This document shows positions 2,903 through 63,078 of a DNA stretch of 64,000 nucleotides, piece by piece. The stretch is from the IMG/VR virus record IMGVR_UViG_3300048930_000991, positions 1 to 64,000 of that record. One strand, 5' to 3'. The position numbers were made by a program, and so were the translations under genes. The first letter of the stretch is position 1. Each line of letters opens with the position of its first letter. The stretch is from a virus. The notes beneath the pieces were generated by a model. That model was not told where the DNA came from, made no database searches, and saw nothing but the letters and a program-made list of their open reading frames with translations.

Positions 2903-2907
2903 GTCGG

Positions 2908-37584: not shown

Positions 37585-37608
37585 CGGGCCATCCGGAATG
37601 AGGGTGGG

Positions 37609-44052: not shown

Positions 44053-45729
44053 TCATGCCGCCACCGGCAGGTTGTTGGGCTGCGCGCTCATCACCAGCCG
44101 GCGGATGGCCTGGCGGTTGAACTTGAAGCTCAGCAGCGCCGAGGCCTGGTACCGGGTCATGCCGAGATCGGCCCGTGCCGCCGGCGGCAGATGGATCAGC
44201 TGGCGCTCGGTCGGCGGCTCGCGCAGCCAGCGCCGGCTCTTGTGGGCGCTCTCGTCCGTTTCATAGGTGTTCAACCAGTCATCCGCCGCGGCCAGCGCCA
44301 CCAGCCTCTCGCCGATGGACAACAGGCGCGGCAGCTCCTCCTTGGCGCCGCCGACCGCGTGCCAGGCTCCGTTCAGGAAGAAGATACCGGCCCAGCCGTT
44401 GAACCCGTTGGCCAGCAGCGCGGCGTCATCGCCGAACAGGTCGCACCACTGGAAGGCGGAGCGGCGGAGGAGATCGATCTCCGTCATGATGAAGTCGGTG
44501 AGCGGCGCCGTCTCGCGCCCGCGGGGCTCGAAGGCGTGGCCGCAGATCGGGCACTCCATCACAGCGATCGGCACCTCCGCCTCGCAGGAGGGGCAGGTTT
44601 TGGTGGGCGGCTCGCCCTCGCCGGGTTGGCTGTCGAGATCGACATCCTGCTCCAGGCAGCCGTGGATCTGCGAGGAGGTGCCGAAGTCGAGCACGATGCA
44701 GTCGCGCTTGACGATGCCGGGATGCTCGGTGGGATCCACGGTTCGCAGCCCGCGGCCCACCATCTGGATCATCGTGCACTTGAACGAGCTGGGCCGCAGC
44801 AGCACGACGCAGGAGGTGGGCGGGTGGTCCCAGCCCTCGGTGAGGACGGCGACGTTGACCACGATGCGCGCCTCGCCCCGGGCATAGGCGGCCAGGACGG
44901 AACGGCGCTCCCCCTCCGGCATGTCGCCGGTCACCACGACAGTGGGAACGCCAGCCGCGTTGAAGGCGGCGGCGACGTGTTCGGCATGGGCGACCGTGGA
45001 GCAGAAAGCCACGGTCTGGCGGTCGCCGGCCTTCTCCTGCCAGTGATGCACCACCGCGTCGGTGACCGGCACCGTGTCCATGACGCGGGCGACTTCGCCC
45101 ATGTTGAAGTCGTCGCCGCTGCGCCGCACCGCGCGGAGCTCGTCCTGGACGCCGACATCGATGATGAAGGTGCGCGGCGGCACCAGGTGGCCGGAGGCGA
45201 TCAGCTCCCCGAGCCGTATCTGGTCGGCGACGTTGGAAAAGACCTGCCGCAGCCCGACCTTGTCGCCGCGGTTCGGTGTGGCGGTGACGCCGTAGATGCG
45301 GCAGCCGGGATTGCGCTGCAGCGCCCGATCGATGATGCGGCGATAGCTGTCGGCGACGGCGTGATGCGCCTCGTCGATCACCAGCAGGTCCAGCGCCGGC
45401 ATCGCCTCGAGGTTCGCCTGGCGCGTCAGCGTCGGCACCATGGCGAAGGTGACCTGGCCGGCCCAGGACTTCTGGCCGGCATCCACCACCGAGGTGGAGA
45501 CGCCCGGGTTCACGCGGCGGAACTTCGCCAGGTTCTGCGCCGTCAGCTCATCCCGATGCGCGAGGACCGCGGCCTTGGCGGCGCTGCCATCGATGTGCTC
45601 GCCCACCGCCGCCGACAGCATGATCGTCTTGCCGGCGCCGGTCGGGGCGACGCCGAGCGTGTTGCCGTGGGTGTCGAGCGCACGGAGGCTGCGCTCGACG
45701 AACTGCTTCTGGCGGGGGCGGAGCATCAT
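44053..45729 (-). CDS. DEAD/DEAH-box helicase
   Basis: This 558-residue superfamily 2 helicase has LRPRQKQFVERSLRAL (Q-like motif), Walker A APTGAGKTIM near residue 28, LVIDEAHHAV near 115, YGVTATPNRGD near 148, and motif VI MIQMVGRGLRT near 315. After the two RecA domains there is a zinc motif, CPSC and CPIC (about residues 365-390). The C-terminus is phage-specific and may bind the replisome. Such enzymes aid phage replication or recombination. The SSB-like gene begins 17 bases upstream. Confidence 0.88.
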   Translation of the reverse strand: MMLRPRQKQFVERSLRALDTHGNTLGVAPTGAGKTIMLSAAVGEHIDGSAAKAAVLAHRDELTAQNLAKFRRVNPGVSTSVVDAGQKSWAGQVTFAMVPTLTRQANLEAMPALDLLVIDEAHHAVADSYRRIIDRALQRNPGCRIYGVTATPNRGDKVGLRQVFSNVADQIRLGELIASGHLVPPRTFIIDVGVQDELRAVRRSGDDFNMGEVARVMDTVPVTDAVVHHWQEKAGDRQTVAFCSTVAHAEHVAAAFNAAGVPTVVVTGDMPEGERRSVLAAYARGEARIVVNVAVLTEGWDHPPTSCVVLLRPSSFKCTMIQMVGRGLRTVDPTEHPGIVKRDCIVLDFGTSSQIHGCLEQDVDLDSQPGEGEPPTKTCPSCEAEVPIAVMECPICGHAFEPRGRETAPLTDFIMTEIDLLRRSAFQWCDLFGDDAALLANGFNGWAGIFFLNGAWHAVGGAKEELPRLLSIGERLVALAAADDWLNTYETDESAHKSRRWLREPPTERQLIHLPPAARADLGMTRYQASALLSFKFNRQAIRRLVMSAQPNNLPVAA

Positions 45730-46411: not shown

Positions 46412-47284
46412 TCAGGCGGTCGGGGTGTTGGCAGGCGCGGGCAGCGCGGGCGTCGGCGCCGGCAGTGCCAGGCGCTCAGCGATCGGGCGAGCGGGGCCGC
46501 GGATCTTCGCGAAGAGCCGGCCAAGATGCGGCTCCTCGACCATGTCGAGCCGGCCGCTGCGGTCCTTTGCGGGGTATCCCCAAGGATTGAGCGTCTGGCA
46601 CACGAGTGCGCGGCGGAGCTGGCCGTCCTCGCCCTTGATGGCGGCGAGCGTCAGCACCTCGTCGACGATGCCGGGCAGTTCGAGACCGGTCTTGCTGCCG
46701 TCGATCTGCGGCACGAAGAGCTTACGATTGAAGTCGTCGACCTTCTCGTCGAGGATGCCCACGAAGATCACGTTCTTGCCGCGGGTGTGCTGGAGCTGCG
46801 TGAGCCACGCGATCATCTCGCGGCCATGCAGCCCATAGGCGCCGCGCAGATCGGGCTTGCCGGTGCGTTCGGCGAAGGCCTCGGGCTGGCCGCGGCACCA
46901 TTGCAGGCAGAGACGGCCGGCCACGGTGATGCTGTCGATGAACAGCGTCTCGTAGCGATCGAGCGATGCGGGATCGCCGAACTTCGCGCAGACGCTGGTG
47001 TAGTGCGCCTGCGAGTATGGCTGCTCGTCGCGCAGCGCCGGGTTCGGCCCGCCGAAGAAGGCCGCGAGGTCGCGGCATTCCTCCCAGGTGCGCGGGCGCA
47101 CCGTGTCGCCCGGCCATCCCTCGACGGCGAGGTCACCGGCCTCGAGGTCCCAGAAGAGCGTCGTCGTCGCCAGCAGCGTCCACAGCAGGCTGGTCTTGCC
47201 TTCGCCGCTGCGGCCGAAGATCGCCACCTTGATCATTCGCTCGATGGCGAGCCGCTCATCGGCGGTGATGATGCGCAGCGCCAT
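46412..47284 (-). CDS. Sak4-like recombination ATPase
   Basis: This 290-residue protein is a single-domain RecA-like ATPase with Walker A IFGRSGEGKTSLLW near residue 22 and Walker B ETLFIDSITVAGRL near 113. HTRGKNVIFVGILDEKVDDF follows near 168. The tail is Pro/Ala-rich. Phage Sak4-type proteins pair single strands and work with SSB, which fits its neighbours. It overlaps the upstream gene (TGATGG). Confidence 0.78.
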   Translation of the reverse strand: MALRIITADERLAIERMIKVAIFGRSGEGKTSLLWTLLATTTLFWDLEAGDLAVEGWPGDTVRPRTWEECRDLAAFFGGPNPALRDEQPYSQAHYTSVCAKFGDPASLDRYETLFIDSITVAGRLCLQWCRGQPEAFAERTGKPDLRGAYGLHGREMIAWLTQLQHTRGKNVIFVGILDEKVDDFNRKLFVPQIDGSKTGLELPGIVDEVLTLAAIKGEDGQLRRALVCQTLNPWGYPAKDRSGRLDMVEEPHLGRLFAKIRGPARPIAERLALPAPTPALPAPANTPTA

Positions 47285-48268: not shown

Positions 48269-48853
48269 TCACGGCCGCGACGGCATCGGCGTCGCCGCGC
48301 GTGCGGATGCCGCAGGCTCGGGGCGCACACCGAGCGTGCGCAGCCAGCAGCGCAGGTCGTGCAGCTCGCGATAGAAGGTGGCGGGGGAGACAGCGCCGGC
48401 GTCGCGCGCGGCCACGACATCACGGTGCAGGATGATCCGCCCCAGCAGCGCTCGCGGTGCCGGCGGCAGATCCTCGCCGACGCGCCCGAATGCGATGCCG
48501 ATGTCGGGATCTGCCTGCGGCACCACGAGGGAACTGCGGATGTCAGCAGCGAACTCGCCATCGAGGGACACGCACGCCGGCGGCGATGGCTGCCGCGCGC
48601 GATCGATGACGGCACGCCGCGCGAGCACGGCGACGAAGGTGGTCCAGGACGCCCGCGTAACGTCGAAGCGCTGGCCCGCTTCAAGGATGACCAGCAGGAT
48701 GTCCTGGGTCAGGTCCTCTCGGTCCTCCCGGGCCAGGCGACGCTGCCGGGCGAAACGCGCGGCGTGGCAGCGGGCCGCCGCCAGAGCCACACGGACCTGA
48801 CGTTCATCCCATTTTTCAGGAAGATGCGCCTGCGATTTCTGTTTCTCTCTCAT
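48269..48853 (-). CDS. Sigma-70-like regulator
   Basis: This 194-residue protein starts at MREKQKSQAHLPEK. The middle resembles sigma region 2: REDLTQDILLVILEAGQRFDVTRASWTTFVAVLARRAVID, including the LTQD-IL helix and W-T positions. The C-terminal half is a second helical domain (PPAPRALLGRIIL, SPATFYRELHDLRCWL) resembling region 4. It is the first gene of the early minus-strand operon, next to the GGGTGCG repeats. It may direct polymerase to later phage promoters. An anti-sigma gene is not seen. Confidence 0.7.
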   Translation of the reverse strand: MREKQKSQAHLPEKWDERQVRVALAAARCHAARFARQRRLAREDREDLTQDILLVILEAGQRFDVTRASWTTFVAVLARRAVIDRARQPSPPACVSLDGEFAADIRSSLVVPQADPDIGIAFGRVGEDLPPAPRALLGRIILHRDVVAARDAGAVSPATFYRELHDLRCWLRTLGVRPEPAASARAATPMPSRP

Positions 48854-48910: not shown

Positions 48911-49054
48911 GGGTGCGGCTAGGGCACGGGGGTGCGCAGGGGTGCGCTGAACGCCCCCGCTCATCATCGCACCCCATAACAACTCAATGCGTTAGCGCTC
49001 CCCATCAATCACTTACGCACCAGGGGGTGCGTGATAGCCGCGATCACCGCACCC
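48911..49054. repeat. GGGTGCG operator-like repeat cluster
   Basis: GGGTGCG occurs at 48911-48917, 48930-48936, 48940-48946 and 49025-49031, with inverted copies (CGCACCC) at 48968-48974 and 49048-49054 and a partial one near 49016. They fill the gap between the early operon start (48853) and the divergent repressor operon (49148), where a lambda-like repressor would bind. The intervening DNA contains a more A+T-rich patch (48975-49014) suited to a promoter. Confidence 0.68.
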
Positions 49055-49090
49055 CCTCCCGTCGCGACCGCTGGACTCCTCCACGGATGG

Positions 49091-49105
49091 GAACATAAAG
49101 TGAAC
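49091..49105. promoter_or_regulatory. LexA box (GAAC-N7-GAAC)
   Basis: GAAC at 49091-49094 and GAAC at 49102-49105 are separated by exactly seven bases (ATAAAGT). Read on the minus strand this is the alphaproteobacterial SOS box GTTC-N7-GTTC. It lies 42 bases before the ATG of the ImmA-like protease gene, a position where LexA would block its promoter. It is outside the GGGTGCG cluster. Together with the box at 38714 this links the prophage to the SOS response. Confidence 0.7.
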
Positions 49106-49147
49106 TTACCGTTGCCCAATCATCTCTAAGCCGGGGACTTGGTTCCT

Positions 49148-49876
49148 ATGTCCATCGCGATCGCCTATCCCGCAGCCGCAGCGCTCAGCCCGCGCCAGGA
49201 CGCAGCTGTCCCAGCCATTCGTACCGTCGCCGCCCAGGTCCGGCGCCAGATCCCGCGCGAGCCCGACAGCCTCTCGCTGACCCTCCCGGCACTGATCGAC
49301 GCCTGTCGCGCGGTCGAGGTGAACGAACAGCGCCTGTCCGTGTCCTGGGAGCTGGGCCGCGCGCTGCGCGATGAGTTCGGCCAGTCCGTGCTCGGCCTCT
49401 GCGACATCGATGCGCACGAACCGGGCTGGGCCTACATCGCGGTCAATGGACCAATGACAGCCAATCGCCCTGATCTGGCGCTGAGCACAGCGGCGCATGA
49501 GCTCGGCCATCTGCTGTTCGACGTGCCGGCCGCGCTGGCCAGGGGAGACCACCGCTATCACGCGGTGGCCAGTTCCCCGCGGGCGCTCGAACGCCAGGGT
49601 CGTGGCGCTGAAGCCCGAGCCAACGAGTTCATGGGCGCCCTGCTGGCGCCGCCGGTGCAGCTGCACACGCGGCTGCTGGCCTATGCGCGCAGCGAGGGGC
49701 TGCGGCTCTGCCGCGGGCCGCACCAGGGCCGGCCGGCCAGCCCGATCGTCGCGGCCGGCAATCCGCCGGATGTCCTGGCGGGCGTGCTGGCGGCGCTGGC
49801 CGGCGATTTCGGTGTGTCCGAGCGGTTCATCGCCGTGCGCCTATCTCGCTACGGCCTGGTGGAAGGAGGCGTGTGA
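49148..49876 (+). CDS. ImmA/IrrE-family metalloprotease
   Basis: This 242-residue protein carries the zinc motif HELGH at about residues 118-122 (STAAHELGHLLFDVP), with the third ligand in the EARANEFMGALLAP helix near 165. The N-terminal 60 residues are helical. ImmA-type proteases cleave XRE repressors such as ImmR and thereby induce mobile elements. The XRE gene directly follows with an ATGA-like overlap. I chose the ATG at 49148, with GGGGA ten bases upstream; a TTG at 49139 is possible. The LexA box just upstream would make the protease SOS-inducible. Confidence 0.85.
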   Translation: MSIAIAYPAAAALSPRQDAAVPAIRTVAAQVRRQIPREPDSLSLTLPALIDACRAVEVNEQRLSVSWELGRALRDEFGQSVLGLCDIDAHEPGWAYIAVNGPMTANRPDLALSTAAHELGHLLFDVPAALARGDHRYHAVASSPRALERQGRGAEARANEFMGALLAPPVQLHTRLLAYARSEGLRLCRGPHQGRPASPIVAAGNPPDVLAGVLAALAGDFGVSERFIAVRLSRYGLVEGGV

Positions 49877-50157
49877 TGGCGTTCGGCGATGTGGTGCGCG
49901 CCCGGCGCACGGAGCTCGCGATCGGGCTCAACGATTTGGCCGAGCGGATGGGGATCTCCCCCGGCTATTGGTCACGGATCGAGCGCAATCTCGACAAGCC
50001 ACCGAGCGATGAGGTGGTCCAGCGCGCCGCGGCGATCCTCGGCATTCCGCTCGACGCGCTGTTTGTCGAGGCGGAGCGCCTGCCGCCCGATATGCGCAAG
50101 GACATGGGTCGCGTCGTGCTGGCCTATCGGCGCCTGCGCAGCATGCGTGCTGGCTGA
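49873..50157 (+). CDS. XRE-family repressor (ImmR/Cro-like)
   Basis: This 94-residue protein has a classic XRE domain: VVRARRTELAIGLNDLAERMGISPGYWSRIER covers helices 1-4 with the recognition helix near residues 29-37. The C-terminus is short and has no S24 peptidase domain, so RecA-stimulated self-cleavage cannot occur. Induction would then need the protease encoded immediately upstream. The likely operators are the GGGTGCG repeats. The start overlaps the protease stop. Confidence 0.83.
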   Translation: MMAFGDVVRARRTELAIGLNDLAERMGISPGYWSRIERNLDKPPSDEVVQRAAAILGIPLDALFVEAERLPPDMRKDMGRVVLAYRRLRSMRAG

Positions 50158-50168: not shown

Positions 50169-50840
50169 ATGGCAAACCCTCCAAAGAAGAAGGTCTTCTA
50201 CCAGATCGACGAAGTGTGCGAGCGGCTCGGGCTGTCGCTACTCGATATGTCGGTGCTGGTATCCGAGCGGAAGATCCAGCTCTGCACCGCAGTGGCTGGC
50301 TTACTGGTGGAGGACGGCCACTACGAGGTCGCGCTCGATGGCGATGATGCGCCGGTCCCTGATGACCGCTCGCGTGTGCAGGGCCTCGTCGACCTGAAGC
50401 CAGACGATGCGTGGTTCGTTCTGCGGCATGGATCGCAGACGATCTTCTGGCTGGCTGCCGAGCCGGGTTGCTACCGGCGCCTGGTCAGCACGAGCGAGGA
50501 AGACCGCGGCTACACCGTCATCCGTGACGAGGTCGGCGTGCGCCACGAGGAGTTCGCGCGCTACGCGGTCACCGAGGAAGCGCTGGATAACATCGCGCTT
50601 GGACCGAAGGCCAGAGGACGCGGCTCGCAGCCGATTTATGACTGGGATGCGGCTCGGCTCGAGGCGTGTCGGCTGATCTACTTCGAGGGTGTGCCGGGGT
50701 CCTTCGGCGCCCTGATCCGGCATGTGCAGGGCTGGTTTGCCGAGAAGGGCGGCAGGGTGCCCGACGAGAGCACGATGAAGCGTCGGCTACGCGATGTCTG
50801 GGCCATGTTTGGATCGGAGGCAAAGCCGAAGGCGGCGTGA
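50169..50840 (+). CDS. Unknown protein of the immunity operon
   Basis: This 223-residue protein begins MANPPKKKVFYQIDEVCERLGLSLLDMSVLV, where the start reads like a MerR/excisionase-type helix-turn-helix. The middle is beta-rich (DAWFVLRHGSQTIFWLAAEPGCYRRLV). The C-terminus (DESTMKRRLRDVWAMFG) is helical and resembles a segment found in many alphaproteobacterial phage proteins of unknown role. It follows the repressor gene by 11 bases and ends at a strong hairpin. A regulatory role is inferred. Confidence 0.65.
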   Translation: MANPPKKKVFYQIDEVCERLGLSLLDMSVLVSERKIQLCTAVAGLLVEDGHYEVALDGDDAPVPDDRSRVQGLVDLKPDDAWFVLRHGSQTIFWLAAEPGCYRRLVSTSEEDRGYTVIRDEVGVRHEEFARYAVTEEALDNIALGPKARGRGSQPIYDWDAARLEACRLIYFEGVPGSFGALIRHVQGWFAEKGGRVPDESTMKRRLRDVWAMFGSEAKPKAA

Positions 50841-51127: not shown

Positions 51128-51630
51128 CGCGCACCACGAAGCCCAAGCCCGCCACCCCGCCGGCGTTCGCCGCCCCCGCCATCCCCCCTGCCGACGTGCT
51201 GGGCCGGCTCGCCGCCCTGAAGACCGCCGCCACACCCGCGCTGAAGCAGCAGTGGCGCGACCTCTTCGGCACCGAGCCGCCGCCCTACAACCGGCGCTTC
51301 CTGGAGAGCCGGCTCGCCTACCGAATCCAAGAGCTTGCCTATGGCGGCCTGAAGCCGGAGACGCTGGCGCGGCTCGAGGCGCTCGGCGAGCAGCTCGACG
51401 GCGGCAAGGTCACCGTCCGCCGCATGCGCGGCGATGATAAGCCGCTCGCCGGCACGCAGCTGATCCGCGAGTACCGGGGCGTCGAGCACGTCGTGACCGT
51501 GACGCGCGCCGGCTACGAGTACGGGGGCCGCCCCTACCAATCGCTCTCTGCCATCGCCCGCGCCATCACTGGCACGCGGTGGAACGGCCGCGTGTTCTTC
51601 GGCCTGCGCCCGAGTCGGGGCGCGGCATGA
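51124..51630 (+). CDS. DUF2924-domain protein
   Basis: This 168-residue protein has the DUF2924 core: LKQQWRDLFGTEPPPYNRRFLESRLAYRIQ, then LIREYRGVEHVVTVTRAGYEYGGRPYQSLSAIARAITGT. The final part resembles a small DNA-binding fold with the YxSLSAIA-A-TG pattern. It always appears before a serine recombinase in many alphaproteobacterial islands and may be a directionality or accessory factor. It overlaps both neighbours by four bases. Confidence 0.85.
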   Translation: MTRTTKPKPATPPAFAAPAIPPADVLGRLAALKTAATPALKQQWRDLFGTEPPPYNRRFLESRLAYRIQELAYGGLKPETLARLEALGEQLDGGKVTVRRMRGDDKPLAGTQLIREYRGVEHVVTVTRAGYEYGGRPYQSLSAIARAITGTRWNGRVFFGLRPSRGAA

Positions 51631-52979
51631 AGCGCGACGCGAAGGCGACCGGCATCATGCCGGGCACCGTGAAGAAGCTCCGCTGCGCGGTCTACACCCG
51701 GAAGTCGAGCGAGGAAGGCCTCGACATGGAGTTCAACTCCCTCGATGCGCAGCGCGAAGCGTGTGAGGCGTTTATCGCCAGCCAGCGCGCCGAGGGCTGG
51801 GTGCTGGTGCGCGAGCGCTACGACGATGGCGGCATCTCCGGCGGGACGCTGGAACGCCCCGCCCTGAAGCGCCTCGTCGCCGACATCCAGGAGGGGCTGG
51901 TCGACGTGGTGGTGGTGTACAAGATCGACCGCCTGAGCCGCTCGCTGGTCGACTTCACCAAGCTGGTCGAGGTGTTCGACGCGAACCAGGTCACCTTCGT
52001 CTCGGTGACGCAGTCATTCAACACCACCACCAGCATGGGGCGGCTGACGCTGAACATCCTCCTGTCTTTCGCGCAGTTCGAGCGGGAGGTCATCGGCGAG
52101 CGGATCCGCGACAAGGTCGCGGCGTCGCGCAAGCGGGGCATGTGGATGGGCGGCTTCGTGCCGCTGGGCTACGACGTGCGCGAGCGAAAGCTGTTGGTGA
52201 ACGACGCAGAGGCCGCATTGGTGCGGCGGATCTTCCAGGGCTTCGTCGAGATGGAATCGTGCACGAGGCTGGTGCAGGTGCTGCGCGCCGAGGGCGCCAC
52301 GACGAAGCGGGGCCGCCCACTGACCAAGAGCGACGTCTACCGCATCCTCAGCAACCGCGTGTACCTCGGCGAGGCGGTGCACAAGGGCACGGCCTATCCC
52401 GGCGAGCACGACGCCATCGTCACCCAGGCGCAGTGGGACGCGGTGCATGCCATCCTGCAGGTCAGCCCGCGGGTGCGGGTCAACCGGACACGGAACACCA
52501 CCGCGCCGCTGCTGCGCGGGCTGATCTTCGATAGCGACGGCCGCGCCATGTCGCCGAGCCATAGCCGCGGCCGAGGCGGGCAGATGTACCGCTACTATGT
52601 CAGCCAGGCGGTGCTGAAGGGCGGCGCGACGGAACGGCCGGCGATCGCGCGTCTGCCGGCCGGCGAGATCGAAGCGGCGGTGGTCGCGCAGGTCCGCGGG
52701 CTTCTGCGGCAGCCAGAGATGGTGGTCGGCACCTGGCGGGCCGCGCGCAGCACAGCGCCGGACGTCACCGAGCAGGAGGTACTGCTGGCGCTGGAGCGGA
52801 TCGAACCGCTGTGGGACGAGCTGTTCCCGGCCGAGCGGGCGCGCATCGTGCGGCTGCTGGTGGACCGCGTCGACGTCCGGGCCGAGGGCGCCGCGGTGCG
52901 GCTGCGGCTGGACGGGCTCGGCAGCCTGGTGCGCGACCTCGCTGCGCAGGCGCCCGAGGCCGGGAGGGTCGCAGCATGA
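51627..52979 (+). CDS. Serine recombinase, likely prophage integrase
   Basis: This protein has 450 residues. The resolvase domain includes CAVYTRKSSEEGLDMEFNSLDAQREA (nucleophile Ser in RKSS near residue 29) and VVYKIDRLSRSLVDF. The recombinase domain follows, with VPLGYDVRERKLLVND and an RGLIFDSDGRAMSPSHSRG stretch. That last part takes the place of the zinc ribbon but has no cysteines. The C-terminus has a coiled-coil-like segment. The start (MKRDAKATG) overlaps the DUF2924 stop. It is the probable integrase of the prophage by position, and the right att site should lie close by. Confidence 0.87.
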   Translation: MKRDAKATGIMPGTVKKLRCAVYTRKSSEEGLDMEFNSLDAQREACEAFIASQRAEGWVLVRERYDDGGISGGTLERPALKRLVADIQEGLVDVVVVYKIDRLSRSLVDFTKLVEVFDANQVTFVSVTQSFNTTTSMGRLTLNILLSFAQFEREVIGERIRDKVAASRKRGMWMGGFVPLGYDVRERKLLVNDAEAALVRRIFQGFVEMESCTRLVQVLRAEGATTKRGRPLTKSDVYRILSNRVYLGEAVHKGTAYPGEHDAIVTQAQWDAVHAILQVSPRVRVNRTRNTTAPLLRGLIFDSDGRAMSPSHSRGRGGQMYRYYVSQAVLKGGATERPAIARLPAGEIEAAVVAQVRGLLRQPEMVVGTWRAARSTAPDVTEQEVLLALERIEPLWDELFPAERARIVRLLVDRVDVRAEGAAVRLRLDGLGSLVRDLAAQAPEAGRVAA

Positions 52980-53471: not shown

Positions 53472-56400
53472 ATGGCTATCGCAACGATCAAGCAGCTTTG
53501 CACGCCCAATGCTGTCGTCACCGGCGACAGCCTCGTTGAGCAAGTTGCGCAGATTGATGATCTCGCCAAAGGCAAGGTCGATGGCCGTGAATTCTTCCGA
53601 CGAAATCACTTCACCTCCGGCCTAGACTTGCTCGTGAAGCGCGGGTTCGATCGGCTCGCGGGCAAGTCAGAAGATGGCGCCTTCTACCTCACCCAGGCCA
53701 TGGGAGGAGGAAAAACCCACAGCCTCATCGCATTCGGGCTTTTGGCTTCAGACCCCGCCCTCAGGCGGGAAATCGTGCCGCGCATCGTCACGGGCTCGGA
53801 ATTCGGCGCGGCCAAGGTGGTCATCTTCAACGGCCACCAGAACCCGGAGACCCTCCTCTGGGGCTACATCGCCGAACAGCTCGGCCGGCCTGATGTGATG
53901 GCGCCGTTCTGGCGTAGTGGTGCGAAGACACCCGGCGTCGATGAATGGGTGCAGGCCCTCGGCACCGAACCCGTTCTCATCCTTTTGGACGAGCTGCCCA
54001 GCTACCTCCAGATGGCCCAGGGCGAGCCGGTGGGCGCCACAACCCTCGGCGACCTGACGATCGGCGCCTTGGAGCGGCTGTTCAACGCGCTGCCGCGATG
54101 CCCGCGTGCCTGCGTCGTCGTCACCAATCTGAAGGACGACGTGTACCTGGAGGGCTCAGGCCAGCTCCGCACGCTGATTGAGAGCCTGACCAAGCACTAC
54201 GATCGCAACGCCCAGGCCATCACGCCCGTCCAGCAAAACTCGGGCGAGGTCTTCGCCATTGTCCGAAAGCGCCTCTTCGACGGCTTGCCCAGCGCGGACC
54301 GGATCGACGAGATCGCGCAGGCCTACGTTGCCGCTCTCCAGAAGGCCAAACGGGTCGACACGATCCCCACCACGCCGGAGACCTTTGTCGAGCGCATCCG
54401 GGAAACCTACCCGTTCCATCCGTCGATCCGCGACATCGTCGCCCGTTTCGCCGAGAATCGCGGCTACCAGAAGACGCGCGCCCTAATCCGTTTGCTTCGC
54501 CTCGCCGTCCGGGGCGCGATGGCGAGCAATGGCAACGCATTCCTGGTCGGCCTCCAGCACCTCGATTTCAACGACCAGGCCACGATCGAGGAAATCCGGA
54601 AGATCAACCCGGCCTATAGCAACGCAATCTCGCGCGACGTCTCCGACCGCGGCAACGCCCTCGCCGAGAAGATCGACGCGATCGACGGCAACACGACCGC
54701 ATCGGGTGTTGCGAAGCAGCTGCTGATGTCCTCGCTCTCCAACGCTGAGTCCCCCCTGCGCGGCCTCACAGACGGCGAGCTGATCGAGACCCTGGTTGAT
54801 CCCCTGCTCGAAGTCTCCGAGATCAAGACCGCGCTCAGCCGCATTCAGGGCCAGGCTTGGTATCTCTTTCAGGGCATCGATCAGCGCGTATTCTTTGGCC
54901 AGACGGCCAACGTCACCGCTGAGATCACCGAGATCGCGGCCAACATCGCCGAGGAACAGGTCGACCAGACCCTGCGTGAGAAGCTGCGCGAGGTCTTCAA
55001 GCCGCGGGCCGGGGCGCTGTACTCGGACAAGATGGCCATCCTGCCGGCGCTGGATGAGATCCAGCTCGACGACGAACGCCCCACGCTGGTGATCCTGGAA
55101 CGGCCCGCCGACAAGCTGCCGCAGGACTTCGTCGACTGGTGGAACAAGCAGGACCTGCAGAACCGCGTCCTCGTCCTCACCGCCGACCCCAATGCCGTCA
55201 CCACGCTGCGGCTCAGCGCGCGACGCATGAGAGCCATCGGCAAAGTGGAGGAGCGCATCAAGGCGCAGCACGGCCAGGGCTCGCCGCAGATGGCCGAACT
55301 CGATGGCGTGCGCGACCGTGAAGCGGCCAACTTCACCAGCGCCCTGCGCGAGACCTTTAAGACCATCGTGTTCCCGATGACGAAGGCGCTGCGTCGCGTG
55401 GACGACTTCCGCATGGAGTTCGACCGCAACGACTACTCCGGCGAGCAGCAGATCATCGACACGCTGACGAAGCGTGGCAAATTCATCCCGAGCGATCAGT
55501 TCGACGGCAAGTTCGAGAACATCCGGCTCGATGCTGAGGACATGCTGTTCGACGCCGACGCAGTGCAGGCATCGTCGTTGCGCCGCAATGCTGCTGTCCG
55601 CTCCGGCTGGTTCTGGCTGCCGAAGGGCGGGCTGGAGCAGTTGGTCCGCACCGCCGTGCAGCGAGGCTTCTGGCGCGAGAAGGAGGGCCTGGTCGCCAAG
55701 AAGTGGGAACGCCTGACGAAGGTCACCGCCCGGCAGGATGACTTCGCCCAGGACCCGATGGTCACCGGCCGCTTCCAGATCAACGTCACCCCCGAGGATG
55801 CCGACATCGTCTATGTGTCGGAGAGCGGCCCTCCCGACCCCGCAAAGGCCACCAGGCTGGATGGGCGCGTCTATGAGACGGCGGCACCGGCGGTCTGGTT
55901 CCTCGGCGTCGATTCCAAGGGCGTGGCGAAGACCGGCGCTGCCTGCGAGTGGCGCGCGACCCTGCGCGTGAAGCCCGACGTGCGGCGCCTGGCCACCGGC
56001 TATCGCGTGGCGCTCCTGGCCATCCCGCGGGCTGCAACGATTCGCGCGACCTTTGACGACACCGACCCCCGGACCGGGCCGGAGGTGCCGCACGCTGAGA
56101 TCGATGCGCCGCCCAACGCCCGCAAGCTGCGCGTGGTCGCGGAACTGCATGGACAGTTCAGCCAGGAGGAAACCGCTCCGCTGGCGACCGGCATGGATGA
56201 AGGCCCCTTCAACCCAAGCAAGCCGAAGCTGAAGCCCGACGCCCCTGTCACCATGATCTCCAAGTTCGAGCCGAAGGACACCGCGGCGGCTTTCTCCGCG
56301 CTCGACCGCTTGGCGAAGCTGCCGGAAGCAAAGGTGCTTGGCGGCACGATCGACTTGAACGGCATGCGGTCGGAGGCGGATTTCCTCACGCTCCGTCTGG

Positions 56401-56591
56401 GGCGTGACGTGCCCATTCCCGCTTCGGCACTCGATCAGAAAGTGAAGGATTTGCTGGCCTTGCTCTCCGCCGAGGCGCCCACGGTGAAGCTCCGGCTCGA
56501 CGGTATTGCCTTTCCGTCCGGACGGGACCTCATGGCCTTCTGCGACGCGGCAGGTGAGGATTTCGACCGCGTCGCCTGGAAGCAGGACTGA
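53472..56591 (+). CDS. DUF499 AAA+ ATPase, anti-phage-associated
   Basis: This 1039-residue protein has Walker A QAMGGGKTHS near residue 77 and a Walker B/sensor stretch EPVLILLDELPSYLQ near 155. VVVTNLKDDVYLEG follows. The N-terminal start IKQLCTPNAVVTGDSLVEQVAQIDDL is typical of the family. The C-terminal third is beta-rich and may bind partners. In known loci DUF499 proteins are encoded with DUF3780, DUF1156 methyltransferase and PLD-helicase genes, as here. The ATPase probably drives DNA inspection or remodelling. It starts the operon with only 64 bases of leader after the recombinase cassette. Confidence 0.85.
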   Translation: MAIATIKQLCTPNAVVTGDSLVEQVAQIDDLAKGKVDGREFFRRNHFTSGLDLLVKRGFDRLAGKSEDGAFYLTQAMGGGKTHSLIAFGLLASDPALRREIVPRIVTGSEFGAAKVVIFNGHQNPETLLWGYIAEQLGRPDVMAPFWRSGAKTPGVDEWVQALGTEPVLILLDELPSYLQMAQGEPVGATTLGDLTIGALERLFNALPRCPRACVVVTNLKDDVYLEGSGQLRTLIESLTKHYDRNAQAITPVQQNSGEVFAIVRKRLFDGLPSADRIDEIAQAYVAALQKAKRVDTIPTTPETFVERIRETYPFHPSIRDIVARFAENRGYQKTRALIRLLRLAVRGAMASNGNAFLVGLQHLDFNDQATIEEIRKINPAYSNAISRDVSDRGNALAEKIDAIDGNTTASGVAKQLLMSSLSNAESPLRGLTDGELIETLVDPLLEVSEIKTALSRIQGQAWYLFQGIDQRVFFGQTANVTAEITEIAANIAEEQVDQTLREKLREVFKPRAGALYSDKMAILPALDEIQLDDERPTLVILERPADKLPQDFVDWWNKQDLQNRVLVLTADPNAVTTLRLSARRMRAIGKVEERIKAQHGQGSPQMAELDGVRDREAANFTSALRETFKTIVFPMTKALRRVDDFRMEFDRNDYSGEQQIIDTLTKRGKFIPSDQFDGKFENIRLDAEDMLFDADAVQASSLRRNAAVRSGWFWLPKGGLEQLVRTAVQRGFWREKEGLVAKKWERLTKVTARQDDFAQDPMVTGRFQINVTPEDADIVYVSESGPPDPAKATRLDGRVYETAAPAVWFLGVDSKGVAKTGAACEWRATLRVKPDVRRLATGYRVALLAIPRAATIRATFDDTDPRTGPEVPHAEIDAPPNARKLRVVAELHGQFSQEETAPLATGMDEGPFNPSKPKLKPDAPVTMISKFEPKDTAAAFSALDRLAKLPEAKVLGGTIDLNGMRSEADFLTLRLGRDVPIPASALDQKVKDLLALLSAEAPTVKLRLDGIAFPSGRDLMAFCDAAGEDFDRVAWKQD

Positions 56592-56596
56592 CGATC

Positions 56597-57268
56597 ATGG
56601 CCCACGCCCCCGCCGCACCCGCACCCGCCAGCTTCGACTGCGCCGACATCTATCAGGAGCACGGCTTTCTCGTGCGCCTCACCAAGGGCCGCGACGCGAA
56701 GGTGCAGGTGTTCGAGGTCTTCGGCCGCCCGCCGACGGAACGCGAACCGCAATGGGCGCCCGAGACCATTCTGCGCTGCGAGGCCGCGCGCGAGGTCTGG
56801 GACGTCGTCTCGCCCGAGGCGCGCGCCGAGTTCAACCGGCGCCTGAAGACAGAGAACCGTCCGGCGGGGCGCTGGGGTGCGGATGAGACGGCCGTGCAGC
56901 GCCTGTTCGGCAAGGAATTGCTGGTGCTGCTCTGGGCCATCGAGCTGCCTGACGTGAAGCCGGAGGAGGTCGGCGTCGCGATCCGCAACTGGCTGGGGCT
57001 GAAGCCCGAGGAGCGCTGGTGGCTCTACACCATGACCGCTGCCGGCACCGGGCTGGCGCACCAGGCTGGCATGGGGTGGCGCGGCGCCCTGCGGCAGGCG
57101 CTGTGCTTCGGCACCCGCCACGACGCCTTCCACCTGGGGGCGGTGACCGGCCGCGGCACGCTGGAGCCGCGGTTGAATGCCCAGTACGTGCAGCCGAAGC
57201 GCAAGCCAAGCCGCAAGAAGAGTGATGACCCTGGCTTCTTTTTCGCTCCGGCGCTGCCGGCCGAATGA
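56597..57268 (+). CDS. DUF3780 protein, anti-phage-associated
   Basis: This 223-residue protein starts MAHAPAAPAPASFDCADIYQ. The sequence is largely helical with conserved aromatic clusters (LLWAIELPDVKPEEVGVAIRNWLGLKPEERWWLY). A basic tail (KRKPSRKKSDD) could bind nucleic acid. It is between the DUF499 and DUF1156 genes, the typical place for DUF3780. The last four bases overlap the next start. Its biochemical role is unknown. Confidence 0.8.
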   Translation: MAHAPAAPAPASFDCADIYQEHGFLVRLTKGRDAKVQVFEVFGRPPTEREPQWAPETILRCEAAREVWDVVSPEARAEFNRRLKTENRPAGRWGADETAVQRLFGKELLVLLWAIELPDVKPEEVGVAIRNWLGLKPEERWWLYTMTAAGTGLAHQAGMGWRGALRQALCFGTRHDAFHLGAVTGRGTLEPRLNAQYVQPKRKPSRKKSDDPGFFFAPALPAE

Positions 57269-60216
57269 CGGAGAGTGCTGTGAGTGCTGCTGCGCGTGCT
57301 GAGACGGCCCCGGGCCTTGCGCCCTTTTCGCTCAAGGATGCGCCGGCTTTCATCGAGCGGCAGTTTCCTGTCGGACGGCTTTCGGCGGAGGCCTACAAGG
57401 AGCGTAAGGCGAACCTTGGACAAACGTTGACGGGGCTCGGCTCGTATTGGAAGGGGCGCAAGCCCCTCATTATGGTGCGGGCTGTCGTGCTGGGCTGCCT
57501 CTTGCCCTCAACGAATGATGCCGCAGAAGACCTCGATGTCTTCCTCAAGCTCATGGCGATGGACGATATGGCCTTCGGTCGCCGGTTCAACGGAAGCGCC
57601 GCCGAATTCGCAAAGCTCTTTCCGGCCTACGCGAGCCTAGCAACGGAGGCCAAAGGCAAACGCAGCGTCTGGAGAGAAGATCTATCCACAGCGCAGCGAC
57701 AAATCCGCGTCGCTGAGGCCTTTACCAGCCTCCCCTACGCAGAGCGGCTGAAGCACGTGCGCCGGCCTGAAGAATGCGACGAGGCTGAACTCTTGGGCAC
57801 AGTATGGCCGTCCGTGAATCAGCATCTTGGTACAAGCGCCGGAAGTCTGCCTCAGTTGGTTGAGCAGCTCGGCCTGCTCCGCTTTGGACGTCGTCCGCAG
57901 GTAGCTGACACATTCTGCGGTGGAGGATCTATCCCGTTCGAAGCGGCACGGATCGGATGCGACGTCTATGCTTCAGACCTCAACCCGATCGCGTGCATGC
58001 TGACCTGGGGCGCCTTCAACATCATCGGGGCAAAACCCGATAGGCGCGTGGAGATTGAGAAGGCGCAGAAGAGCGTTGCGCAAGCGGTAGATGCAGAGAT
58101 CACGCGCCTCGGCATCGAGCATGACGCAGCCGGCAATCGTGCGAAAGCGTACCTCTATTGCCTTGAGACGCGATGCCCCAAGACTGGTTGGATGGTGCCC
58201 ATGGCGCCATCCTGGGTTGTTTCGAGGCTCCGCAATGTGGTTGCAAAGCTGGTGCCCGATCACGCTGCGAAGCGCTACAAAATCGAGATTGTCGCGAATG
58301 CGTCCCCTGAAGAAATGAAGACTGCGGAGCAGGGCACCGTTCGAGATGGCCGGTTGGTTCACCCCATGAATCCTGAACGGTCTGGCGTCGAGATCAAGAC
58401 CATCCGTGGAGACTACAGGGACGCCGACGGAGCCACGCGTAACCGTCTCCGCCAATGGGAGATCGCCGATTTCGTACCAAGATCGGACGATATCTTCCAA
58501 GAACGCCTTTACTGCGTTCAATGGATCGCAAAAGACTCGTTTGGGAAATCCAGACAGGAGACGTTCCTCGCCGCGGTGACTGATGAAGACATGGAGCGCG
58601 AGCGTCGTGTTGAGGAAATTGTTCGTGACAACCTAGCACGCTGGCAAGAATGCGGCGTGGTGCCGGACATGGCTATCGCGCCTGGTGAGAAGACTGATGA
58701 GCCAATCCGCACGCGCGGTTGGACTTACTGGCACCATCTATTCGGAGCCCGGCAGATACTGCTTTTTTCGCTGTATTTTTCTAATAGATCGGCAGAAGAA
58801 AGTATATTTAGCGCAAAAATGCTCGACTGGAACTCTAGAATTTCTGGATGGATGAATCACTGGGAGAAGACAAATCAGGTTTTTTATAATCAGGCATTGA
58901 ATCCTCATTTAGACTACGCCGCACGCGCCTTCGTAAGTCACGATGCTGGTCGTGTTTTTGGATTTAGTGATGTTGCGATCCCACCTGGTTTAGTGAAAAT
59001 AAAAACTAAAAATGCAAAGGATTACAATGAAGATTGCGAAATAATTGTCACCGATCCGCCGTATGCTGATGCTGTTAATTATCATGAGATAACAGAATTT
59101 TTTATAGCTTGGCTGCGGAAAAATCCCCCGGCTCCATTTGATAATTGGGCATGGGACTCACGGCGAGATTTAGCCATTAAAGGAAAAGATGAGCAATTTC
59201 GGCGCGATATGGTGTCCGCGTATAGCGCAATCTCACAACATATGCCTGAGATTGGCCAGCAAGTTGTTATGTTCACACATCAGGACGCTGGTGTGTGGGC
59301 TGATCTCGCCAGCATCTTATGGGCTGCCGGACTGCGCGTTACCGCGGCTTGGAACATCGTCACCGAGACTGAAAGCGCACTGAAGGCGGGCAATTACGTC
59401 CAAGGAACGGTTTGCCTCGTGCTTCGTAAGCGCCTGGGCGCAGTCAATGCTCGGCGCATGGAGATTGAGGCGGAGATTGAGGAGGCGGTGGCGGCCCAAC
59501 TCGCCCACCTCAACGCCCTCGATGACGCCTGGCACGAGCGCACCAATGCGGAGACGCTCTACACCGATGGCGACCTGACGCTCGCCGCCTATGCTGCGGC
59601 CCTGCAGGTCGTCACCGCCTATTCCAGCATTGATCGCCAGCCGCTCGACCGCGACCTCTACCGCAAGCTCGGCAAGGGCGAGACCACCATGCTGCGTGAC
59701 TTGGTGGACTACGCCGCGCAGGTGGCGAACAGCCTGCTGGTGCCGGAGGGCTTCCCCCGCGACATGTGGCGGGACCTGCTGGCCGCCGAGCGCTTCTATG
59801 TCCGCATGCTCGACATGGAGGCGAAGGGCTCCGCCAAGGTCGCCGACTTCCAGAATTTCGCGAAGAGCTTCGCCTTCGGCGGCTATGCCGACCTGATGGC
59901 CTCCACCACCGCGAACGCGGCGTCGCTCGCCGGCGCCGCCGATCTCAAGGGCCGCATGCTGGAAGGCGAGGGCTTCGGTGGCACCCAGCTCCGACAGGTG
60001 CTCTTCGCCATCTGGAAGACGATGGAAGGCAAGGAGCTCGACCCCAAGCGCGGCGTCATTCTGCTGAAATCAGAATACAACACAGACTACTGGCAGCGCC
60101 GGCAGAAGCTGATCGCCCTGGCCCGCTATGTCGCCGGCAAAACGGCGCGTACTCGCCCCGACGAAAGCGCGGCCGCGCATGAGCTGGCCGAGGCGCTGAC
60201 GCTCGACAGGGTCTAG
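57265..60216 (+). CDS. DUF1156 DNA methyltransferase, anti-phage-associated
   Basis: This 983-residue protein starts within the DUF3780 stop. The DUF1156 N-terminus is clear (AFIERQFPVGRLSAEAYKERK, GRKPLIMVRAV). The SAM site is ADTFCGGGSIPFEAARIGCDVYASDLNP near residue 213, and the catalytic motif is VTDPPYADAVNYHEITEFF near 595. It should modify host DNA, marking self for the defence system. The DNA between about 58740 and 59320, which encodes the catalytic region, is far richer in A+T than the rest of the window, while the C-terminal 300 codons return to high G+C. The reading frame is intact. Confidence 0.87.
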   Translation: MTESAVSAAARAETAPGLAPFSLKDAPAFIERQFPVGRLSAEAYKERKANLGQTLTGLGSYWKGRKPLIMVRAVVLGCLLPSTNDAAEDLDVFLKLMAMDDMAFGRRFNGSAAEFAKLFPAYASLATEAKGKRSVWREDLSTAQRQIRVAEAFTSLPYAERLKHVRRPEECDEAELLGTVWPSVNQHLGTSAGSLPQLVEQLGLLRFGRRPQVADTFCGGGSIPFEAARIGCDVYASDLNPIACMLTWGAFNIIGAKPDRRVEIEKAQKSVAQAVDAEITRLGIEHDAAGNRAKAYLYCLETRCPKTGWMVPMAPSWVVSRLRNVVAKLVPDHAAKRYKIEIVANASPEEMKTAEQGTVRDGRLVHPMNPERSGVEIKTIRGDYRDADGATRNRLRQWEIADFVPRSDDIFQERLYCVQWIAKDSFGKSRQETFLAAVTDEDMERERRVEEIVRDNLARWQECGVVPDMAIAPGEKTDEPIRTRGWTYWHHLFGARQILLFSLYFSNRSAEESIFSAKMLDWNSRISGWMNHWEKTNQVFYNQALNPHLDYAARAFVSHDAGRVFGFSDVAIPPGLVKIKTKNAKDYNEDCEIIVTDPPYADAVNYHEITEFFIAWLRKNPPAPFDNWAWDSRRDLAIKGKDEQFRRDMVSAYSAISQHMPEIGQQVVMFTHQDAGVWADLASILWAAGLRVTAAWNIVTETESALKAGNYVQGTVCLVLRKRLGAVNARRMEIEAEIEEAVAAQLAHLNALDDAWHERTNAETLYTDGDLTLAAYAAALQVVTAYSSIDRQPLDRDLYRKLGKGETTMLRDLVDYAAQVANSLLVPEGFPRDMWRDLLAAERFYVRMLDMEAKGSAKVADFQNFAKSFAFGGYADLMASTTANAASLAGAADLKGRMLEGEGFGGTQLRQVLFAIWKTMEGKELDPKRGVILLKSEYNTDYWQRRQKLIALARYVAGKTARTRPDESAAAHELAEALTLDRV
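58740..59320. other. A+T-rich patch inside the DUF1156 methyltransferase gene
   Basis: Within the gene at 57265-60216 the composition changes abruptly. For example, bases 58981-59040 have 19 G or C out of 60, whereas neighbouring genes run near two thirds G+C. Codons ending in A or T dominate (AAA, TTT, ATT, GAT), and the change is visible at both edges. The frame runs through without a break. The patch covers the DPPY catalytic segment and the residues around it. Confidence 0.75.
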
Positions 60217-60219
60217 CCC

Positions 60220-62967
60220 ATGGCGATCGAGCGCTTCTCCTCCCGCCGCGAAGCGCTGGGCCCTGTCCTGACCGCACGGCTCGCGGGCGCCAAACGGTAC
60301 CTTCGCATCGCCGGCTATTTCCGCTCTTCCCTGCTCGAGGTGGTGGGCGAGGCGCTGGAGACGGTCGGTGAGATCAGAGTGATCTGCAACGGCGACCTCG
60401 ACCCGCATGATGTGAAGGTGGCGAAGGCCGCCCGCGACGGCCAGGCAGCGCTGGCACGCACCCTGGTCTCTTCCTGGCAGGCGACGGAAGACGGGCTGGA
60501 CGTGCTGCTCGCCCGAGAACGCTATCGGCGGCTGCACGACCTTCTGGCCTCGGGCCGCATGAAGGTGCGCGTGGTGCCACGGGATGCCGACAATGTCTTC
60601 GTGCACGGCAAGGCTGGCGTGATCGAGCATGGCGACGGCCGCGTCTATTCCTTCGTCGGCAGCGTGAATGATTCCGCCTCCGGCTTCCGGCATGCCTACG
60701 AAATTCTGTGGGGCGACGAAGATCCGATTGCCGCGACCTGGGTGCGCGAGGAGTTCGAGCATTTCTGGCAGCAGGGCGTCGACCTGCCCGATGCGGTGGT
60801 GAAGCACGTCGCCGCCATGGCAGGCCGGATCGAATATCGCTCGATCGAGGCGGCGCGTGACACGGGCGGCGATGTCGCGACCGATGCCATCCTGGCCGAG
60901 CGCCCGATCTACAAGGGCGGGCAGATCCTGCGGTCCTGGCAGAAGCGCTTCGTGCAGAGCTGCGTCGAGGATCGCCGGCTGCATGGTCGCGCGCGCTATC
61001 TGATCGCAGACGATGTCGGCCTCGGCAAGACGCTCTCCATGGCGGCCGCGGCCCTGGTGCTGTCGATGCTCGACGACAAGCCGGTTCTGATCCTGGCCCC
61101 TGCAACGCTGATCTGGCAGTGGCAGGAGGAGTTGGAAGACAAGCTCGGCGTGCCCGCGGCGGTGTGGTCAACCCAGAAGAAGTGCTGGCTCGATGGCGAG
61201 CGGCGCCCGCTGACGCAAAAGGGTGATCCGACGCTGGTGGCGAAGTGCCCCTGGCGGATCGGGATCATGTCCACAGGGCTGATCGTGAACGGCGATGACG
61301 CCGGTGAACGAGGGGCACTGGCGAAGAAGTCCTTTGGCGTGGTCATCCTGGATGAGGCGCACAAAGCACGCGCCTCCCGCGGCCAGAACGGCCGCGGCGC
61401 GGCGGAACCAAATCAGTTACTGCGATTCCTGCGTGGCGCCGCTGGCAAGGCCACCAACGTGATCATTGGCACAGCGACGCCGATCCAGCTCGACGCGGTC
61501 GAACTCTGGGATCTGCTGAGTGCGCTTGGCCAGGGTGCGCCGCAGGTCCTTGGGCAGCCCTTCGACGGCGGCGAGTGGGTGCGTGAGGAGTCGATCCGCT
61601 ACCTGACCGGGGCCAAGGCCTGGCCGATGAACGACACGAACCGCTGGGGCCTGTTCCGCAACCCGCTGCCACCTGCCGCTGAACACTCGGTGTTCCGCGA
61701 CATCCGCAATGATGCGGGCCTCCTCCCGCGCGACGTGCTGGGGCCGCGGTTCGACGATCTTGGCTCAGATATCCGTACCGATTTCCTGAACGACTTCCAG
61801 GCGCTCGCCGAGCGGCACAACCCGATCGTGCGTCGGGTTGTTCGGCGCACCAGGCCGATGCTCGAAGCGCGTGGGCTGCTCAAGCGCATTGGCGTGCTGA
61901 CGCACCCGAAGCCTGACGACGGCCTGCCAGCCTCGCTGTTCAGCGGTGAGGGCCTGGAGATGAGCATCGCCTTCAGGGCCGCCTATGAGGCCGCGGAGGC
62001 CTTCAGCCGCCTGTACGCGCAACGCTTTCCCGGCGCTGGCTTTCTAAAGACCATCCTGCTGCGCCGCATCGGTTCTTCGGCGCGCGCTGGGCTTGAGACG
62101 GCACGGCATCTGCTCGGTCGGCTGGACGGTCCGCTCGTCCCCGAAGACGAGACGAGCGATGAAGGCGTCCCCGACAATGCCCTGCCGCCCGATCCCCAGG
62201 AGCTCCAGTACCTACGCGATGTGGAGCGGAACCTGGCCGCCGTCGTCTCGGGCAGTGACACGGATCCGAAGGTTCAGGTGGTGCTGCACTATCTGCGTGA
62301 GCGGCGCTGGCTTGAGACGAACGGCGCCATCATCTTCAGCCAGTACCGGACGACGGCGGAGTGGGTCCTGGAGGCCCTTTGTGCCGCGTTTCCGGACGAG
62401 CCGGTGGCTCTCTACGCCGGCGGCGCCGCGTCCTTCGTGCAACGCGGCCAGGATCGCCGCACGGCTGCCCGCGAGCAGATCAAGCGACGCATCCAAGATG
62501 GGGAGATCAGGCTGGTCTGCGCCACGGACGCTGCTTGCGAGGGGCTGAATCTGCAGCGCCTTGGTGCGCAGGTGAACATCGACTTGCCGTGGAACCCATC
62601 GCGGCTGGAGCAGCGGAAGGGGCGCGTGCAGCGCATCGGCCAGGCGCGAGACGACATTCACGTGCTGAGCCTGCGCTATGCCGGCACCGTGGAGGATCAG
62701 GTCTACGCGGCGCTGTCCCAGCGCTTTGGCGACATCTTCTCGGTCCTTGGCCAGCTTCCGGACGCCTTCGAGGACGATTGGATCTCAGCCGTGCTCAAGG
62801 ATCGCACGGCGCTGCAGAACTTCTCACAGCGCGTCGAGACGGCGAAGCCACCAATGGAGCTGCGCTACTCTCTGGACATTGCCGACGATCAGGGCCTGGA
62901 CTGGGAGTACGCAGAAAAGGTCCTCTCCTCGCGCGATATCGATGAGTGGATGCGACAGGGATGGTGA
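60220..62967 (+). CDS. PLD-SNF2 helicase/nuclease, anti-phage-associated
   Basis: This protein has 915 residues. The N-terminal phospholipase D-like domain carries a single HxK motif (VHGKAGVIEHGDGRVYSFVGSVND, near residue 127), suggesting a dimeric nuclease or DNA-binding module. A full SNF2-type helicase follows: ADDVGLGKTLSM near 265, VVILDEAHKARAS near 375, GTATPIQLD near 420 and QRKGRVQRIGQARD near 808. It begins three bases after the methyltransferase stop. It is the probable DNA translocase and possible nuclease of the system. Confidence 0.87.
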   Translation: MAIERFSSRREALGPVLTARLAGAKRYLRIAGYFRSSLLEVVGEALETVGEIRVICNGDLDPHDVKVAKAARDGQAALARTLVSSWQATEDGLDVLLARERYRRLHDLLASGRMKVRVVPRDADNVFVHGKAGVIEHGDGRVYSFVGSVNDSASGFRHAYEILWGDEDPIAATWVREEFEHFWQQGVDLPDAVVKHVAAMAGRIEYRSIEAARDTGGDVATDAILAERPIYKGGQILRSWQKRFVQSCVEDRRLHGRARYLIADDVGLGKTLSMAAAALVLSMLDDKPVLILAPATLIWQWQEELEDKLGVPAAVWSTQKKCWLDGERRPLTQKGDPTLVAKCPWRIGIMSTGLIVNGDDAGERGALAKKSFGVVILDEAHKARASRGQNGRGAAEPNQLLRFLRGAAGKATNVIIGTATPIQLDAVELWDLLSALGQGAPQVLGQPFDGGEWVREESIRYLTGAKAWPMNDTNRWGLFRNPLPPAAEHSVFRDIRNDAGLLPRDVLGPRFDDLGSDIRTDFLNDFQALAERHNPIVRRVVRRTRPMLEARGLLKRIGVLTHPKPDDGLPASLFSGEGLEMSIAFRAAYEAAEAFSRLYAQRFPGAGFLKTILLRRIGSSARAGLETARHLLGRLDGPLVPEDETSDEGVPDNALPPDPQELQYLRDVERNLAAVVSGSDTDPKVQVVLHYLRERRWLETNGAIIFSQYRTTAEWVLEALCAAFPDEPVALYAGGAASFVQRGQDRRTAAREQIKRRIQDGEIRLVCATDAACEGLNLQRLGAQVNIDLPWNPSRLEQRKGRVQRIGQARDDIHVLSLRYAGTVEDQVYAALSQRFGDIFSVLGQLPDAFEDDWISAVLKDRTALQNFSQRVETAKPPMELRYSLDIADDQGLDWEYAEKVLSSRDIDEWMRQGW

Positions 62968-63078
62968 CGGTTAACGCTTCCCCACCCTGGTGATGAGCAT
63001 CGCGTCGATTTACTGTTTCATCTCGGGAACGTAGGCCAGAATATTGAGGGCCACCCGAATGGCGGCGGGAGAGCGAGT

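Follow-up and report, generated by a model that had tools for sequence, protein, structure and literature searches.

In GIL01 of Bacillus thuringiensis, lysogeny is described as being kept by host LexA acting at the P1 and P3 promoters, with a LexA-like phage protein serving as an activator. The antirepressors of Gifsy prophages are likewise described as being under direct LexA control. In Caulobacter, GafY and GafZ, a DNA-binding protein and its sigma-like partner, are reported to activate the phage-like cluster that encodes gene transfer agents. For some mobile elements it is not yet settled how DNA damage acts on ImmA-type proteases, and one study of ImmR/ImmA leaves its link to the SOS response for later investigation. 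In the locus described here, two known themes join, namely LexA-controlled phage genes and the pairing of an XRE regulator with an M78 protease. It lies in a stretch of 64,000 bases (hereafter the window) out of the 65,413 bases of an IMG/VR virus record. Comparison of this locus with its relatives suggests a direct transcriptional link from LexA to an immA-xre operon, in a family with related copies in environmental bacteria that have been named. One of them, Neoroseomonas eburnea LMG 31228, has the operon with an ImmA identity of 97%. Among the matches listed, with titles and the beginnings of abstracts covered and subscription journals mostly outside the scope, we found no description of a LexA-controlled ImmA operon in a phage.

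In the explanation that we favor, immA-xre would be a LexA-gated lytic-induction operon, with XRE more likely an activator than a pre-made repressor and ImmA its protease; we give this explanation about an even chance of being correct. The element would be a temperate phage whose hosts are Acetobacteraceae and related Alphaproteobacteria, and host LexA would gate the operon directly. During lysogeny, LexA would occupy the probable -10 element of the immA-xre(-orf3) promoter, as well as a second operator before a gene for a 111-aa protein. Upon DNA damage, LexA would cleave itself, and the ImmA protease and the small XRE protein would be made together. XRE would then act at GGGGTGCG sites in the vicinity of the divergent early promoter, activation being its more probable effect, and ImmA, as the dedicated protease of XRE, would limit or tune the XRE step. 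Support for this explanation comes from the LexA boxes and their conservation, from overlapping genes that lie behind one box, and from the motif and fold of the protease. Against it, M78-type proteases are described as cleaving repressor partners, a pattern that an XRE activator would break.

The protease gene, immA (49148-49876, + strand), is predicted to encode a 242-aa M78 (ImmA/IrrE-like) metalloprotease. Its identity as an ImmA-like protease, proposed in a first-pass annotation of this DNA, was borne out by an HELGH motif, by the invariance of H117, E118, H121, E155 and E160 in 20 aligned ImmA relatives, and by a fold like that of CapP and IrrE, with a Pfam score just under the cut-off (PF06114, E=3.2e-4, 20.9 bits against a gathering score of 22 bits). 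An AlphaFold2 model (pLDDT 88.9, pTM 0.89) had CapP (E=1.7e-5) and IrrE and PprI (E=1.1e-3) as its top structural matches, with a probability of 1.00. TM-scores against these three proteins were only 0.40-0.45, so the model provides no close superposition. Sequence searches gave no relatives of ImmA in the PDB up to E=1, and none in plasmids or phages.

The start codon of xre (49876-50157, + strand) overlaps the immA stop codon by a single base (TGATG). Its 93-aa product, a helix-turn-helix regulator, scored above cut-off for HTH_3 and HTH_31 and gave no match to S24, in agreement with the earlier description of a small XRE protein without an S24 domain beside an M78-type protease. The nearest folds of XRE include SinR, ClgR, DdrO, C.BclI and CapH. 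ClgR and C-proteins can activate transcription. The two genes adjoin in 72 of 74 loci; the remaining two are L050, which is cut off after immA, and L070, where xre was not detected. Downstream in the window are orf3 (50169-50840, + strand), a conserved third gene assigned to phrog_13283 by homology searches, and a large serine recombinase that is probably the integrase (51627-52979, + strand; PF00239 and PF07508). On the opposite strand, the first divergent early gene (48269-48853) encodes a sigma-70 region 2 protein, matched by PF04542 on a longer version of the ORF and by phrog_1740 (E=4.5e-4). It is accompanied in the early operon by genes for an AAA_24/Sak4-like ssDNA annealing protein (46412-47284, - strand; homology searches) and a DEAD/ResIII helicase (44053-45729, - strand; Pfam profile).

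Box 1, GAACATAAAGTGAAC, occupies 49091-49105 on the + strand and is separated by a 42-base gap (49106-49147) from the ATG of immA at 49148. The first-pass annotation treated positions 49091-49876, an interval that spans the box and the protease and leaves xre (49876-50157) outside. From the window alone, box 1 could be a chance occurrence: the bare GAAC-N7-GAAC pattern is found three times against 1.06 expected, and at least three copies were present in 7 of 100 shuffles. Since the bare pattern is not significant in the window, the significance of box 1 comes from its conservation across related loci. A protein scan of viral contigs with ImmA yielded 55 loci, and the exact box was found in 52, upstream of immA in 51 and upstream of xre in L053. 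The exceptions were L016, with the first half only, L040, with one mismatch, and L051, where the gene start is truncated. In named alphaproteobacterial genomes (L059-L071), 12 of 13 loci carried the box; the one without it, L061 of Siccirubricoccus deserti, has the same coordinates as L016. Over 67 loci, a count that includes duplicates and leaves out the truncated L051 and L072-L077 (another branch), 64 had the exact box no more than 150 bp ahead of whichever gene of the pair comes first, against 0.19 expected from base composition, and its position was -55 to -59 in 51 of these 64.

Removal of exact duplicates, with two more-distant relatives also used as queries, left 63 loci with sufficient upstream sequence (two rows with too little were left out), and the box was present in 60 (43/46 window-like, 11/11 L056-like and 6/6 L054-like loci). 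When the loci were clustered at 90% ImmA identity, it was found in 37 of 40 clusters. The misses in both counts were L016, L040 and L051, and these three loci weigh against the explanation that we favor. In an alignment of 10 close intergenic regions, 56 of 63 columns in the box, the -35 hexamer and the GGGTGCG sites were invariant, compared with 59 of 231 columns elsewhere. The claim that GAAC-N7-GAAC lies 42 bases upstream of the protease ATG is thus confirmed, and the case for it is stronger than originally stated.

We take GAAC-N7-GAAC to be the alphaproteobacterial LexA motif. No match to LexA itself was found in the 65,413-bp virus record of the window, and host sequences were represented by seven genomes that carry relatives of the immA-xre operon. 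The same box lies upstream of lexA in all seven and upstream of recA in four (either strand). The more specific pattern GAACATAN4GAAC had 61 matches in these genomes, some of which are the phages' own boxes, and a reversed control pattern had none. Fifteen ORFs were located near other host boxes and seven were tested; four matched ImuA, all below the curated cut-off, and the other three were a glycosyltransferase, elongation factor G and an ORF with no match. Because the same box precedes host lexA, recA and imuA-like genes, it fits the host SOS operator, and we predict that box 1 is very probably a LexA operator. LexA control of the immA promoter, as originally suggested, is therefore supported at the sequence level by these host genes together with conservation in 60 of 63 loci. 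The genome of Neoroseomonas lacus carried 23 GAACATAN4GAAC sites, compared with 4 to 8 in the six other genomes, and several of its sites are accompanied by GAACATATCA.

A probable promoter, TGGACT-N16-CATAAA (49072-49099, + strand), matches the consensus at 8 of 12 positions and has its -10 hexamer inside the box, where bound LexA would cover it. Among 60 loci, 40 carry a GAC that lies 13-14 nt upstream of the box, compared with a rate of about 4% at each position beyond that; by group, it is present in 29/43 window-like, 11/11 L056-like and 0/6 L054-like loci. The -35 spacing thus fails in 20 of 60 loci, including all six L054-like ones, and a stricter scan found no promoter at immA; both results count against the favored explanation.

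A second predicted operator, box 2 (GAACAATACAAGAAC, 38714-38728, - strand), precedes a gene for a 111-aa protein with no Pfam match (38342-38677, - strand), which is followed by a gene for an HU/IHF-like DNA-binding protein (37939-38313, - strand; PF00216, E=7.1e-19). In 6 of 19 phage records, among them that of the window, a box with a related spacer is located at a distance of roughly 10 to 12 kb from box 1. Among 18 record stretches, the 111-aa protein is encoded in five others, all five with the box. A search with this protein gave 14 loci (two of them in already sampled records), and the box was present in all 14, at -49 to -65. LexA boxes are thus predicted at more than one phage promoter, at 49091 and at 38714. 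These observations bear on an alternative that we consider very improbable, in which the box serves a phage protein as its operator instead of LexA, or the immA and xre genes form a toxin-antitoxin pair. Work on Brucella has treated a metalloprotease/XRE pair as a putative toxin-antitoxin system, which speaks for the latter. The presence of this box type at host lexA and recA and its recurrence before the unrelated 111-aa gene in 14/14 loci argue against both, as does an E. coli-type site, CTGTATATTTATACAG, at -53 of the same operon in L215.

The arrangement of the genes behind the box informs the role of XRE. The divergent layout of the early genes that the window shows is found in 54 of 74 loci. 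L054, L055 and L057 are arranged as box-immA-xre-early genes, and L052, L053, L056, L069 and L071 as box-xre-immA-early genes, in each case with all of these on the same strand. In every box-bearing locus where xre was detected beside immA, xre lies behind the box. Neither a promoter scan nor conservation of the immA 3′ end gave any sign of a separate xre promoter in the window. Four-fold sites at the immA 3′ end had a conservation of 0.74 (12 sites) against a mean of 0.62; this difference was too small, and the scan being negative, an internal xre promoter was dropped as a candidate. Based on the one-base overlap, the shared box and the occurrence of both gene orders, LexA would hold immA and xre down together, presumably through one transcript. 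If LexA keeps the promoter down, XRE would therefore be scarce in the lysogen and would rise together with the protease.

With this in mind, we reconsidered the order of events proposed in the first-pass annotation, in which inactivation of LexA leads to production of the protease and the protease then cuts an XRE repressor that is already in place, freeing the early operon. This proposal is supported in part. LexA gating of the protease agrees with the sequence. A pre-made XRE repressor is the weak point, with xre behind the same box in both gene orders and no separate promoter seen. An antirepressor-type layout would have the repressor made from a separate unit, and if XRE is the repressor this is not what is found, as immA and xre overlap behind one box. 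The operon structure thus makes the repressor-cleavage order less likely, and DNA damage probably switches the phage on by steps unlike those first proposed. For a model with pre-made XRE to survive, LexA repression would have to leak enough for sufficient XRE to be made, and ImmA would have to depend on a further signal that activates it.

Such a model can be put as follows. With leaky LexA repression, the lysogen would contain small amounts of XRE together with ImmA in an inactive state, and XRE would repress the early operon at GGGGTGCG; damage would then raise ImmA through cleavage of LexA and also activate it, for instance through ssDNA, so that XRE would be destroyed and the early operon would start. 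We regard this as possible, with somewhat more speaking against it than for it. LexA repression can leak, so some XRE is possible in lysogens, a point that tells against the explanation that we favor. ImmR/ImmA, DdrO/PprI and CapH/CapP are all described as repressor and protease, with ssDNA described as activating PprI and CapP, and CapP, IrrE and PprI are the first matches of the ImmA model. In addition, the invariant RLPPD in the tail of XRE could be a cut site. On the other side, XRE shares its LexA box with the protease in both gene orders, with no separate xre promoter seen, and at 93 aa it is shorter than DdrO (129-residue chain), its match covering only the first 62 DdrO residues.

A search of 16 phage records, which may be incomplete, gave no S24 repressor, and xre was the only HTH_3 match above cut-off in 12 of them. 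Further HTH_3 proteins above cut-off are encoded in the window's own record (G000) and in G014, G021 and G022; in the window's record this is a HipB-like protein (1586-1726). An extra HTH_3 protein could thus act as repressor in 4 of 16 records, the window's included, which counts against the favored explanation.

XRE may repress or activate, and for XRE partners in general the sign should not be taken for granted. The stretch that separates the sigma-like gene from the immA promoter hexamers holds six GGGTGCG copies, none of which overlaps a hexamer: 48911-48917, 48930-48936, 48940-48946 and 49025-49031 on the + strand, and 48968-48974 and 49048-49054 on the - strand. The whole window holds 35 copies against 24.1 expected, six of them within 48911-49054. 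Candidate operator repeats differ by clade (GGTGCGGA, GGTGCCGA and GGGGAATA), with no repeat of at least three copies in several clades. Since these repeats vary while the helix of XRE hardly varies across clades, the clade comparison neither shows nor excludes XRE binding; we infer that XRE may bind at GGGGTGCG. On the minus strand near the sigma-like gene, the best promoter match reached only 7 of 12 positions. Such a poor promoter may hint at one that is activated, and in the favored explanation XRE would supply this activation.

XRE could also resemble Cro, as an early regulator or autoregulator that keeps the operon and the divergent genes in check once induction has occurred, with lysogeny maintained by LexA alone and with ImmA removing XRE later or targeting another protein. 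This seems unlikely to us. In several lineages xre and immA do lead co-directional early genes, which is a Cro-like place, and L070 retains the box and immA without a detected xre. The GTTAAC motif found upstream of xre in 49 of 86 loci of the L073-like branch also speaks for this reading; against it, no GGGTGCG copy lies on the hexamers of the operon's own promoter in the window. L070 also speaks against an activator XRE behind the LexA gate, as we favor, and it provides a natural test of whether XRE is needed. In this locus (L070:5162-6630), the LexA box and immA are followed directly by an orf3-like gene.

The L073-like branch carries the same pair in the order xre-immA. Its named hosts (L072-L077) are Cupriavidus, Stenotrophomonas, Corticibacter, Sterolibacterium, Aquabacterium and an unclassified proteobacterium, and the pair also occurs in many viral contigs whose host is not known. 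In L073 itself, xre-immA stands at the head of a one-strand run of early genes. No alphaproteobacterial LexA box was found in 86 L073-like loci, each with at least 159 bp of upstream sequence. The pair is thus not bound to LexA; among the loci examined, only the other branches showed the alphaproteobacterial LexA gate. That the pair can work without LexA counts against the favored explanation, and a box-less pair fits the self-standing repressor and protease of the leaky-repression model. One member of the branch, L215, has its CTGTATATTTATACAG site, which is close to the E. coli LexA consensus, just downstream of a TTGACA and at -53 relative to xre. As about 0.2 matches to the bare E. coli-type pattern are expected by chance in 86 stretches, this single match is not strong. 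An E. coli-type box as a general substitute in this branch was rejected (1/86).

Elsewhere in the window, behind the recombinase, a defence-like cluster (53472-63996) encodes DUF499 and DUF3780 proteins, a DUF1156 methyltransferase, a PLD helicase and an Mrr-type restriction enzyme. A cassette between phage genes (15670-20455, - strand) encodes an SMC/LmuB-like ATPase, a protein without matches and a SIR2-like protein; its GC content is lower than that of its neighbours, and it is possibly a phage-borne defence cassette. A ParDE-type toxin-antitoxin pair (34303-34880) and a MazE-like antitoxin gene (28557-28817) lie within the phage region. There are also two adjoining N6/N4 DNA methyltransferase genes (34881-37848), one with a ParB-like N-terminal domain. 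The left end (381-6454), with HipA-like and HipB-like XRE genes and two ParB/RepB-type genes, is perhaps host or plasmid sequence. The start of a large ORF at 3070-4662 resembles a serine recombinase by eye.

Taken as a whole, the locus may represent a phage family in which known parts are combined in another way. We tentatively propose, as an idea we think somewhat more likely to be wrong than right, that in an alphaproteobacterial temperate phage family host LexA itself is the lysogeny repressor at two phage promoters. A repressor-protease pair, XRE-ImmA, would have been turned into a lytic activator under LexA gating, whose own protease acts as a timer, and the E. coli-type box of L215 would apparently have been gained independently. 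A close parallel is GIL01, in which host LexA likewise acts at two or more phage promoters and the genes that follow could be turned on by a small DNA-binding protein of the phage, as we predict here. In contrast, the phage proteins of GIL01 are described as the co-repressor gp7 and the LexA-like activator gp6, whereas our locus has an XRE protein with an M78 protease and LexA boxes of the alphaproteobacterial type. The reading of XRE and the sigma-like protein as a counterpart of GafY/GafZ was rejected because GafY is DnaA-like and not an XRE protein; GafY is described as resembling DnaA domain IV, and gafYZ as being repressed by RogA. The likeness is one of analogy only.

The Gifsy antirepressors and Tum of coliphage 186 share with this locus the placement of LexA over a phage gene expected to trigger induction, with the S24 repressor not found here (0/16). 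Those antirepressors inactivate a phage repressor, and protease activity is not described for them; in our locus one LexA box also precedes the regulator gene, whose partner is a protease. There is a further likeness in gene content to ImmR/ImmA of ICEBs1 and its relatives, CapH/CapP and DdrO/IrrE (PprI), in which a small XRE protein also adjoins an M78 metalloprotease in a DNA-damage setting. The sections consulted on those pairs mention no LexA box, in contrast to the one at the operon promoter here. The pair in our loci also differs in that the protease gene mostly comes first and the XRE protein is shorter than DdrO.
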